36,632 nt of DNA from Clostridia bacterium (GTDB taxonomy: Bacteria; Bacillota; Clostridia; Oscillospirales; CAG-272), in the NCBI GenBank assembly GCA_029007295.1, contig JAQXHN010000005.1, positions 1 to 36,632 on the forward strand, in the 5' to 3' direction. Below, piece after piece: positions 19,870 to 23,015 of this stretch. The notes beneath the pieces were generated by a model, which was not told where the DNA came from, searched no databases, and worked only from the letters and a program-made list of their open reading frames with translations. Every line of letters begins with the position of its first letter. Positions within the stretch are counted from its first letter, which is position 1. The position numbers and the translations under genes were made by a program.

Positions 19870-20868
19870 ATGGCACAGTTTGAAGGCTATGAAAGACGCG
19901 AAGCGAAAATTCTCGCCGCGCTTAAAGAATTCGGAATTTCCTCCATCGACGAATGCAAGGAAATTTGCGCTTCCAAGGGTATTGACCCTTATAAAATTGT
20001 TGAAGAGACTCAGCCTATCTGCTTTGAGAACGCAAAGTGGGCTTATACGGTAGGCGCCGCAATCGCAATTAAGAAGGGCTGCAAAAAGGCTTCTGACGCC
20101 GCCGCCGCTATCGGTATCGGTCTTCAGGCGTTCTGCATTCCCGGTTCCGTTGCCGAAAACCGCAAGGTTGGTCAGGGACACGGCAACCTCGGCGCAATGC
20201 TTCTTTCCGACGAAACGGAGTGCTTCTGCTTCCTTGCAGGTCACGAATCCTTTGCTGCCGCAGAGGGCGCAATTAAAATTGCGCTCAATGCAAACAAAGT
20301 CCGTTCTAAGAATCTCCGTGTTATCCTGAACGGTCTGGGCAAGGACGCCGCTTACATTATTTCGAGAATTAACGGCTTCACATACTGCGAAACGGTATTT
20401 GATCCCTATACCGAAACAGTTACGGTAACAAAGGAAATCCCGTTCTCAAAGGGACCGAGAGCCGACGTAAAGTGCTACGGTGCGGACAACGTTCCCGAGG
20501 GTGTTGCGATTATGAGACTTGAAAATGTAGGAGTTTCCATCACAGGTAACTCTACAAACCCGACTCGATTCCAGCATCCCGTTGCAGGCACATACAAGAA
20601 ATGGTGTGTTGAAAACGGCGTTAAGTATTTCTCTGTTGCGTCCGGAGGCGGCACAGGTCGTACGCTTCACCCGGATAATATGGGCGCAGGTCCTTCTTCC
20701 TACGGTATGACGGATACAATGGGAAGAATGCACTCCGACGCTCAGTTCGCAGGCTCTTCCTCCGTTCCGGCTCATGTTGAAATGATGGGTCTTATCGGCA
20801 TGGGCAACAACCCGATGGTAGGTGCTACCGTTGCGGTTGCCGTTGCCGTAGAAGAGGCAATGAAGTAA
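19870..20868 (+). CDS. GGGtGRT family protein (unknown function)
   Basis: 332 residues, with the diagnostic SGGGTGRTLHPDN at residues 258-270 (GGGTGRT at 259-265). The family is named for this glycine loop and has no established function; the loop looks like a phosphate or nucleotide contact, which is inference. Other landmarks are GQGHGNLGAMLL, CFLAGHESFAAAEGA, and a C-terminal VGATVAVAVAVEEAMK helix. Start ATG behind AAGGAGGATATGAAAA. The gene pairs with the NifU-like gene, a conserved arrangement as far as I know. Its last 99 bp are duplicated about 2 kb downstream, which makes the 3' end a junction of an accessory islet. Confidence 0.88.
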   Translation: MAQFEGYERREAKILAALKEFGISSIDECKEICASKGIDPYKIVEETQPICFENAKWAYTVGAAIAIKKGCKKASDAAAAIGIGLQAFCIPGSVAENRKVGQGHGNLGAMLLSDETECFCFLAGHESFAAAEGAIKIALNANKVRSKNLRVILNGLGKDAAYIISRINGFTYCETVFDPYTETVTVTKEIPFSKGPRADVKCYGADNVPEGVAIMRLENVGVSITGNSTNPTRFQHPVAGTYKKWCVENGVKYFSVASGGGTGRTLHPDNMGAGPSSYGMTDTMGRMHSDAQFAGSSSVPAHVEMMGLIGMGNNPMVGATVAVAVAVEEAMK

Positions 20869-20871
20869 GCC
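20773..20871 (+). repeat. Direct repeat, copy A (3' end of the GGGtGRT gene)
   Basis: 99 bp that recur at 22825-22923 with three differences (at 20775, 20781 and 20823), all at third codon positions and all silent in the GGGtGRT frame. Identity stops sharply 3 bp after the stop codon (20872 T against 22924 G). Confidence 0.95.
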
Positions 20872-20955
20872 TTGTTAAATAAGTTTTTTGAAGCTTTTGA
20901 ACTTCACCTTGCGATTTTAAAAATTTAATCATATAATAGTAAAAAATAAATAATT

Positions 20956-21001
20956 AGACACATCATTTTTTAAGATTTCATAAATGATGTGTCTATATTT
21001 T
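20956..21001 (+). terminator. Terminator after the intact GGGtGRT gene
   Basis: Perfect 13-bp stem (20956-20968 with 20982-20994), then ATATTTTTT. Its outer arm AGACACATC resembles AGACGCATC of the terminator at 22970 beyond the second repeat copy. Confidence 0.88.
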
Positions 21002-21081
21002 TTGCATAACTAGCGATGAGCTTTGCAATGAAAAATTATAATGAAGGCGGTAAAAGAAAGTCTAAAAAAATGTCTTATATC

Positions 21082-21363
21082 TTATAAGCTCTCTAAAAAT
21101 GCAATCAAGAGCTTTTTTTGTTTTGGCGTGAGCTTAGAAAGCGCAACTAACAGTTTATCGTCCTTAGTCTCTAAATTAAAAAAATCTTGAAGCGAGATAC
21201 CCATTGCGTCGCATATCAACTGTAAGTGCCCAACAGTAATATCTGCCTGACCAAGTTCAACTCTGCGTAAATGTGTCTGAGATACCCCCGCCTTTTCGGC
21301 TAAACCGTTTTGTGTGAGACAACACATGGTTCTTAATTCAAGCAGTTTTTTACCAACATCCAT
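21082..21363 (-). CDS. XRE-family transcriptional regulator of the islet
   Basis: 93 residues. A single Cro/C1-type helix-turn-helix spans about residues 5-60 (LTQNGLAEKAGVSQTHLRRVELGQADITVGHLQLICDAMG), followed by a short basic tail ending in LIAFLESL. AAGGAG stands before the ATG. It is divergent from the membrane-protein gene, and three AGTCTTATA repeats lie between them, one just upstream of its own start. This suggests it represses both itself and the two-gene cargo operon. No protease or sensor domain is present. Confidence 0.88.
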   Translation of the reverse strand: MDVGKKLLELRTMCCLTQNGLAEKAGVSQTHLRRVELGQADITVGHLQLICDAMGISLQDFFNLETKDDKLLVALSKLTPKQKKLLIAFLESL

Positions 21364-21380
21364 ATTCCAACTCCTTAGTT

Positions 21381-21452
21381 AGTCTTATAGGAATATTTTA
21401 ACACAAAAAAATATTTTTATTAGTCTTATAAGGTTGACAAATCAGTCTTATA
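21381..21452. promoter_or_regulatory. Three AGTCTTATA operator repeats
   Basis: Identical 9-mers at 21381-21389, 21422-21430 and 21444-21452, all in the same orientation. The starts are 41 and 22 bp apart, close to four and two helical turns. The second copy lies just before the -35 at 21434 and the third lies within the spacer between -35 and -10. Likely binding sites of the XRE regulator; inferred from position and repetition. Confidence 0.7.
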
Positions 21453-21462
21453 ATGTTATAAT
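21434..21462 (+). promoter_or_regulatory. Promoter of the islet cargo genes
   Basis: Consensus TTGACA (21434-21439) and TATAAT (21457-21462), 17-nt spacer. Because of this, an in-frame TTG at 21434 cannot be the start of the next gene. Confidence 0.88.
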
Positions 21463-21532
21463 GTGTCTAATATTAGTTTTAATATTTTTTCATAATATTA
21501 AGGCTGTAAACAATCAAATGTGGGGGATAAAA

Positions 21533-22213
21533 ATGGAACCAAATGATAATTATTCAGAACAGTCGGTTTCTTTGGAAAAAGACACTATTGATTTAAGGGG
21601 GAACGAGTCTCATTCTGCGCCTCAGGAGAAGAAATATAAGAGACTTCTTTTCGCCGGTCTTTTGACGATTCCTGTTTTAGTAGTTATGATTATTGCAAGT
21701 CAGTTGTTTTTTGCATACGCAATGGCGTATTCAAATAACGCATTGTTTTTTGGATTGTTGATAGTATCGGTTCCGTTTGCTTTGGCATCCATACCGTTTT
21801 TGCTTCACGCTAAGGCCAAGTTTTCGGGTTCGGGAACAAAGCGTAAAATGGAAAAAGGCGCATCAACGCTGCTTTATATCTTGGCTATTTTAATGGTAGC
21901 GTCGGCTATGGTTTGTGGCTTTTCCAAAGCTTTTTCGAGTGTAGGATTATTAAACATGTTTTCTGTTGGATTATTTATTATTATGGCGATTACTTTCATA
22001 ATGTATTGCAACGCAGTTTCTAATCAAAGCGGTGTTGAAGCATATTATTGCTTTGCAAAAGCAATGTTAGTTGCATTTATATTGTCGTCACCTGTCGGAT
22101 TTGCTTTAGGAATGCTATTAAGATTGTTGGAAAAAGCTATAATTGCTGTTATTGTGCTTTTTGTTGTGTTTATATTTTTTGGAGGAAGCGTTATATATTA
22201 TCGTCGTGGATAA
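21533..22213 (+). CDS. Islet membrane protein, six predicted helices
   Basis: 226 residues from ATG 21533, which has GGGGGA before it and lies about 65 nt after the predicted transcription start. Residues 1-36 are polar and acidic then basic (KKYKR), so the N-terminus should be cytoplasmic. Six helices are predicted at about 38-62, 70-92, 111-132, 139-160, 172-196 and 201-222, with short basic loops (KRKMEKG after helix 2) and a YYRRG tail. I recognise no family and no catalytic motif. It is the first gene of the cargo operon; the zinc-ribbon gene follows 25 nt later. Confidence 0.8.
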   Translation: MEPNDNYSEQSVSLEKDTIDLRGNESHSAPQEKKYKRLLFAGLLTIPVLVVMIIASQLFFAYAMAYSNNALFFGLLIVSVPFALASIPFLLHAKAKFSGSGTKRKMEKGASTLLYILAILMVASAMVCGFSKAFSSVGLLNMFSVGLFIIMAITFIMYCNAVSNQSGVEAYYCFAKAMLVAFILSSPVGFALGMLLRLLEKAIIAVIVLFVVFIFFGGSVIYYRRG

Positions 22214-22238
22214 TTGAATAAAGAAAGGGCTTATAATT

Positions 22239-22832
22239 GTGGGATTTTTGGATTTATTTAGAAGTGTTGGAGAATTACAACAACAAAGCGGCATTGTTAA
22301 AAATACACGTCAGCAAATTTTTAATATACGCGACCGACTTCGCAATGCCCCTCAGTTTTCTGAAATCTTTTACAATATTGTAAAAGATCCTTCGCATCCG
22401 CCGTTGCAGATTGTGATAGATTATACACAAGGTAATTTTTTTAGTATGGACTGGGATGTTCGAACAGATAATTACGAGCCGTATCTTATTGCAAAATACA
22501 CTGATACGAATATCGCTTATGAGGAAGGTTGCGCAATTTTTCTTCTAATTCAGGAGTGTTATCCTGACGTGTATGATTTTCCGAATAGAACTGTTACTCA
22601 AATATCCGAAGGAGTTCCGCTGGAACTTAATATGAATAATAAGTTTCAGTGCAAACGATTAATTCCGGCTACAACTCCCGTTCAGCTTACTAATAAGTCT
22701 GATCAAAGCTCACCTCAAACAACATGCGAATCTTCGAGCGCCGCAACCGTGAATCGTTTTTGCTCAAACTGCGGCGCAAAGCTTGATGAAACAGCACGTT
22801 TTTGTTCGTCTTGCGGAGTTGCAACACGTTGA
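22239..22832 (+). CDS. Islet protein with C-terminal zinc ribbon
   Basis: 197 residues from a GTG start that has AAAGGG 9 nt upstream; no ATG is available. The N-terminal 140 residues (MGFLDLFRSVGELQQQSG, then a mixed alpha/beta region with IVIDYTQGNFFSMDWDVR) match no family I know. A Ser/Gln/Thr linker leads to a zinc ribbon with Cys175, Cys178, Cys189 and Cys192 (FCSNCGAKLDETARFCSSCG). The last two codons and stop fall inside repeat copy B, so its C-terminus was set by the junction. Probably acts with the membrane protein upstream. Confidence 0.78.
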   Translation: MGFLDLFRSVGELQQQSGIVKNTRQQIFNIRDRLRNAPQFSEIFYNIVKDPSHPPLQIVIDYTQGNFFSMDWDVRTDNYEPYLIAKYTDTNIAYEEGCAIFLLIQECYPDVYDFPNRTVTQISEGVPLELNMNNKFQCKRLIPATTPVQLTNKSDQSSPQTTCESSSAATVNRFCSNCGAKLDETARFCSSCGVATR

Positions 22833-22923
22833 GATGATGGGTCTTATCGGCATGGGCAACAACCCGATGGTAGGCGCTACCGTTGCGGTTGCCGTTGCCG
22901 TAGAAGAGGCAATGAAGTAAGCC
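22825..22923 (+). repeat. Direct repeat, copy B (displaced GGGtGRT 3' end)
   Basis: Second copy of the 99-bp repeat. It keeps the reading frame for the last 31 residues of the GGGtGRT protein and its TAA at 22918-22920, but has no start or ribosome site and so is not expressed as such. The zinc-ribbon gene stops within it (TGA at 22830-22832). Confidence 0.95.
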
Positions 22924-22969
22924 GTCGGGCAAAATAAAATTCTTATTACAAAATTATTTATTAATAATG

Positions 22970-23015
22970 AGACGCATCCCTTTGAAAGCTTTCAAAAGGA
23001 TGCGTCTTTATTTAT
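22970..23015 (+). terminator. Terminator after repeat copy B
   Basis: 10-bp outer stem (22970-22979 with 22998-23007) and an inner 16-bp palindrome TTTGAAAGCTTTCAAA (22981-22996), then TTATTTATT. Probably the original terminator of the GGGtGRT operon before the islet was gained. Confidence 0.85.

Follow-up and report, generated by a model that had tools for sequence, protein, structure and literature searches.

The islet that follows the GGGtGRT gene in the window (the whole 36,632-nucleotide stretch that was analyzed) is very probably a cassette that lacks an integrase and belongs to a family of elements that would integrate into the last ~93 bp of GGGtGRT through tyrosine site-specific recombination. 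Comparison with related genomes shows that, as far as the sequences can tell, the islet is a member of a GGGtGRT element family (a core from about codon 303 to the stop codon, a hairpin, and a header), that the GGGtGRT 3′ end is a recurrent integration site with a mostly fixed boundary, and that a dedicated clade of tyrosine recombinases is linked to this gene end. All of the comparisons rest on draft assemblies, in which no excised circle was seen.

Anatomy of the islet and its flanking repeats

The host target, GGGtGRT (positions 19870 to 20868, forward strand), matched PF14057 with an E value of 7e-191, and its 3′ end was found to be reused across many relatives. The integration core corresponds to the final ~31 codons of the gene. 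The gene-side, attL-like copy of the core (20773 to 20871, forward strand; 31 terminal codons, the stop codon, and GCC) and the distal, attR-like copy (22825 to 22923, forward strand) form a 99-bp direct repeat with an identity of 96/99 and a start-to-start spacing of 2052 bp. The mismatches at 20775, 20781, and 20823 were all at third codon positions (the offset from 19870 is 2 modulo 3) and all silent, which confirmed the repeat, its positions, and its three silent differences as given in the original prediction. Random mutation within the gene tail is expected to be silent in 24% of cases, and the chance of three silent mismatches out of three is ~0.014 when the window pair is taken alone. 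The genome as a whole (size of 1.75 Mb, completeness of 97.1%) yielded no third copy, and good matches occurred at the two known places alone; thus, a common interspersed repeat, which the original prediction had named as potential counterevidence, was rejected. The source genome is a metagenome-derived draft in 60 contigs, its genus is represented by one species alone, and the closest relative among the fetched genomes had a GGGtGRT gene identity of 81.5%. Past the distal copy, a terminator-like inverted repeat read from the sequence (AGACGCATCC...GGATGCGTCT, 22949 to 23015) had no match to the element hairpin and is probably the native terminator of the GGGtGRT gene.

The G+C content of the islet was 35.0%, versus 50.7% for the GGGtGRT gene, and its order was core, hairpin, convergent xre repressor gene, operators and promoter, cargo, and core, without an integrase. 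As originally described, three genes lie between the copies, coding for the Xre, membrane, and zinc ribbon proteins. The xre gene (21082 to 21363, reverse strand) encodes a 93-aa Cro/C1-type regulator (HTH_3, E value of 8e-11), a conserved regulator of these elements with 68 to 82% homologues in sister elements. The first cargo gene (21533 to 22213, forward strand) encodes a 226-aa predicted membrane protein of no family. The second (22239 to 22832, forward strand) encodes a 197-aa protein with a C-terminal zinc ribbon (Zn_Ribbon_1, E value of 4.5e-8), and its stop codon (22830 to 22832) falls within the distal core copy. This zinc ribbon protein had one homologue in the bacterial family, at 29% identity, and its structure prediction had a pLDDT of 51.5, too low for interpretation.

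Beyond the features noted originally, the islet contained a hairpin and a conserved operator/promoter region. The left-end hairpin (GACACATCAT-N18-TGATGTGTC, 20957 to 20993) was a perfect match, unique in its own genome, followed by a T-rich stretch, and it had an RNA fold z-score of -5.0. Three operator-like repeats were located between 21379 and 21452 (TTAGTCTTATA at 21379 to 21389 and again at 21420 to 21430, and TCAGTCTTATA at 21442 to 21452), and a sigma-70-type promoter read from the sequence (TTGACA-N17-TATAAT, 21434 to 21462, forward strand) was directed into the cargo. The islet carried no integrase or transfer genes and no phage structural or packaging genes, the PHROG matches being generic regulators, zinc ribbons, and one weak membrane protein match. 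The right-end motif TATAATG...GATGTGTTC was absent from the window islet; as 22 of the 45 right ends have this motif, it is common in the element family but does not define it.

The GGGtGRT 3′ end in related genomes

Of 80 GGGtGRT loci retrieved solely on the basis of gene similarity, 6 carried an additional, truncated gene-end copy, separated from the first by different genes. A gene-end pattern was then run on 395 genomes from this family of gut Clostridia, which are uncultured; 265 genomes matched, and 27 of these 265 had two to four gene-end copies that in every case shared a contig and a strand and were ~1 to 16 kb apart. Loci with a complete gene had one full GGGtGRT copy and otherwise fragments, and the cargo between the copies differed from genome to genome. 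By our own count, the fragment started at residue 302 to 304 in 24 of 38 truncated copies. Longer gene fragments were present in some elements (loci L144, L146, and L153), and a fixed crossover therefore does not account for all of the copies. Arrays of several elements were seen in genome G095 (L134/L135) and at L254. In a close genome pair (~96% in the gene), one of which carried the integrase, divergence started at codon 303, as expected if the element supplies its own gene end. The att copies of the L148/L154 pair were mosaic; this pattern is not accounted for by one site-specific step and counts against the model, and the crossover position within the 93 bp could not be located from this pair. 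Given these mosaics, gene ends probably also undergo homologous recombination with one another. No empty-site relative was found in a ROK-kinase synteny comparison, and we found no description of GGGtGRT as an integration site in the literature searched.

In total, 27 intact adjacent copy pairs showed 204 silent and 20 nonsilent differences (91% silent, compared with the 24% expected), which indicates that both copies evolved as coding ends. This family-wide count is far stronger evidence than the three of three silent differences in the window, and it bears out the proposal that both copies were under coding selection and that the repeat is not a recent tandem duplication. Other inserts with different cargo, which the original prediction had suggested looking for at this site in relatives, were thus found, and, together with the mostly fixed boundary and the site-linked recombinase described below, they uphold its view of the gene end as an attachment or recombination site. 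Its idea that the incoming copy restores the host gene gains support from the same relatives, through the reused site and the boundary near codon 303.

A second type of insert, of ~100 bp, was observed directly after the GGGtGRT stop codon at L011, L116, L132, and L139. In its junction, GTCATTCC..TATGACATGTTGC precedes the final GGGtGRT codons, and the insert is microCIME-like with a different crossover point. Additionally, phage-type elements of other kinds were present at this gene end in the viral contigs L095, L098, L099, L101, and L102. The arm-like direct repeats of these phage-type elements differed (TAGGTAACA, ATAACTAACA, and TTCAACATT), and the GGGtGRT target may therefore be shared by several recombinase families.

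A tyrosine recombinase linked to the site

At many loci, a conserved tyrosine recombinase of ~316 aa (PF00589, E value of 6e-32) was encoded directly 3′ of the gene end. The catalytic-type residues R, K, HxxR, H, and Y were invariant and in the expected order, and the recombinase profile matched XerA and XerD structures. With an identity threshold of at least 47%, the recombinase started 103 to 499 bp past a GGGtGRT end at 22 of 24 distinct loci; the two integrase genes not adjoining a copy (L143 and L157) were both inside arrays. Homologues below 45% identity were located elsewhere, away from GGGtGRT. Similarly, in a scan of IMG/VR keyed on the integrase, all five matches of at least 47% with a 5′ flank adjoined GGGtGRT, while the weaker matches with a 5′ flank were not at this gene (by eye, two were tRNA linked and one followed the 3′ end of another gene). 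Named phage and plasmid records contained nothing above 30% to this clade. A candidate recombinase family has thus been identified in the relatives, and the original statement that the islet itself encodes no recombinase was correct. A cognate integrase was also absent from the window genome, where the only tyrosine recombinase homologue had 27% identity; the islet is thus a nonautonomous member of the family at most. Truncated integrases were present in other islets (L151, L154, L157, and L163).

A shared hairpin and repressor header

The hairpin GACACATCAT...TGATGTGTC was present in 36 of 45 element left ends, a set that includes a few duplicate fetches of one element and that was counted with a relaxed pattern that admits the 18-nucleotide spacer of the window. 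In the integrase-bearing forms, it sits just ahead of the integrase start. In the similarity-fetched sample, four of the eight occupied loci contained the hairpin, as opposed to none of the 56 unoccupied loci (Fisher P = 1.1e-4), and an origin from a host terminator was rejected on the latter count. The hairpin could serve as a replacement terminator, as a recombination-arm site, or as both.

Homologues of the window Xre protein were found at 68 to 74% identity in 13 other genomes of the bacterial family and at 82% in a viral contig. In at least nine other genomes they were in a GGGtGRT or hairpin setting with different cargo behind the shared header, and seven of these had the order of the window (hairpin, xre backward, cargo forward). 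Two to four TTAGTCTTATA-like repeats with similar spacing lay between xre and the cargo in all 15 xre cassettes, against a chance mean of 0.18 per region, and nearly all 15 had a promoter of the TTGACA-N17-TATAAT type; this set includes three cassettes not seen adjoining a GGGtGRT end. These three (L250, L255, and L256) had the same operator header and neither a GGGtGRT end nor the hairpin in the available sequence, and additional sites may also receive the header. The cargo behind the header differed almost every time and, by eye, included lipoproteins, a TIR-like protein, and ABC transporters. One integrase-less islet was 98.4% identical in two genomes whose GGGtGRT genes were 90.0% identical.

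Cargo of sister elements

Defense-like cargo in sister elements comprised GmrSD/HEC-06, SIR2-STAND, TIR, and AAA_21 with RloB (AbiL-like) genes (L143, 2923 to 4599 and 12889 to 15156; L134, 3052 to 3657; L186, 17091 to 19383). By analogy with this cargo, we would guess that the genes of the window islet have a role in phage defense or competition. Other sister elements carried, by eye, transporter-like and sugar-processing-like enzymes. At L151 (1890 to 4770, reversed locus), proB, proA, and proC-like genes lie after a truncated integrase between gene-end copies, an apparent case of core metabolism, proline biosynthesis, as cargo. A protein of 455 to 464 aa without a reliable family match was conserved at 70 to 98% among full elements (L141, 6218 to 7585; L143, 10183 to 11550; L186, 14884 to 16278; L090, 5081 to 6475). 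It is a candidate replication or transfer protein; the structure prediction for the 455-aa form had a pLDDT of 34, too low for interpretation. No relaxase, VirB4, or conjugation gene was recognized among the genes scanned in full elements.

Discussion

In the mechanism that we propose, the recombinase would exchange strands near codon 303, the last ~30 codons carried by the element would complete the host gene, and the native gene end would be displaced to the far side of the insert. Since the window genome has no cognate integrase, we infer that the integrase that inserted the islet either acted in trans from another element or has since been lost. Once in place, the Xre protein would repress its own gene and the cargo.

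Whether the islet can still move divides two readings that share a common origin and whose probabilities overlap with that of the main statement. It could be the decayed and now immobile remnant of an autonomous GGGtGRT element whose integrase and right end were deleted, an explanation to which we give somewhat less than an even chance. The genome without a cognate integrase, the window without a right-end motif, and the truncated integrases of other islets are all consistent with decay, but the integrase-less layout of core, hairpin, xre, and cargo recurred in at least seven other genomes from several genera, and a 98.4% identical integrase-less islet was present in genomes 10% apart. This recurrence and this near identity suggest that integrase-less cassettes still spread. 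A wider and slightly more tentative proposal is that the GGGtGRT 3′ end acts as an integron-like cassette platform, where nonautonomous cassettes with a shared front and interchangeable cargo would be moved in trans and the host gene would be rebuilt at each insertion from the coding end that the cassette brings. The common front would then consist of the gene-end core, the hairpin, the autoregulated xre gene, the operators, and the strong promoter, and a minority of the cassettes would also encode the dedicated tyrosine recombinase.

RecA-dependent homologous recombination, by which imported DNA with a donor gene end would recombine within the GGGtGRT gene, would account for the mosaic att copies of L148/L154 and the longer fragments at L144, L146, and L153; however, the clustering of starts at residues 302 to 304 (24 of 38 fragments), the dedicated recombinase clade at one site, and the conserved motifs at the element ends make it an unlikely source of the islet. 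An artifact of assembly would be conceivable in a metagenome-derived draft of 60 contigs, where a 99-bp repeat can mislead short-word assemblers, but the same anatomy appeared across dozens of independently assembled genomes, and we regard such an error as very improbable. Least probable, to the point of being nearly negligible, is a tandem duplication of the gene end with unrelated genes inserted later between the copies: these are adjacent and 97% identical, as a duplication would leave them, but a noncoding duplicate would not give 91% silent differences over 27 loci, and the hairpin and header are conserved.

Among known systems, site-specific integration of the islet into GGGtGRT most closely recalls CIMEs, which are integrated elements that have kept attL and attR, have lost their integration and transfer genes, and often lie in tandem (accretion) at the 3′ end of a gene (PMC5704250, PMC7563491). 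The streptococcal CIMEs and ICESt1-related elements occupy the 3′ ends of fda, rpsI, rpmG, and rplL (PMC5704250, PMC7563491). With 99-bp att-type repeats at a site used by an integrase and no integrase or transfer genes inside, the window islet fits the structural definition of a CIME. CIMEs are also defined by derivation from an ICE or IME and by mobilization in cis through a neighboring integrated element; on these points, the GGGtGRT family offers related integrase-bearing elements, whose scanned genes gave no relaxase or VirB4, and tandem arrays (L134/L135 and L254). The likeness extends to sizes of ~1 to 13 kb, to tandem arrangement at the 3′ end of a housekeeping protein gene, and to the presence of microCIMEs of 130 to 220 bp and full elements alongside. 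The GGGtGRT system differs in its target gene, in a recombinase clade with at most 30% identity to phage and plasmid collections, and in the full elements, where no relaxase or conjugation gene was recognized among the scanned genes. Unlike CIMEs, many of the integrase-less GGGtGRT cassettes have an xre/operator/promoter header in common, which suggests a lineage and not decay on separate occasions.

Integrative mobilizable elements, prophages, and satellites likewise combine a tyrosine recombinase beside a gene end with incoming sequence that restores the coding end, whereas the window islet has no integrase, no recognizable relaxase, and no phage genes; without phage structural or packaging genes, it was not assigned to prophages or phage satellites. 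Integron cassette arrays are similar in their tandem, same-orientation cassettes with varied cargo and a recombination site between them, and the recombinase resembles XerA/XerD-type proteins. In contrast to integrons, however, the core is part of a protein gene and not attC, the GGGtGRT cassettes carry their own promoter and repressor, and the integrase travels inside some elements with no fixed IntI platform. The gene-end core and these internal integrases place the islet outside the integron cassettes.

Overall, these results describe, for a large group of gut bacteria that have not been cultured, a sequence-definable integration hotspot together with its recombinase and nonautonomous passengers. 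Cargo such as GmrSD-type restriction, TIR, SIR2-STAND, and AbiL/RloB-like genes can be sought at this site, and the shared repressor/operator header ahead of varied cargo makes the spread of integrase-less islands directly testable.
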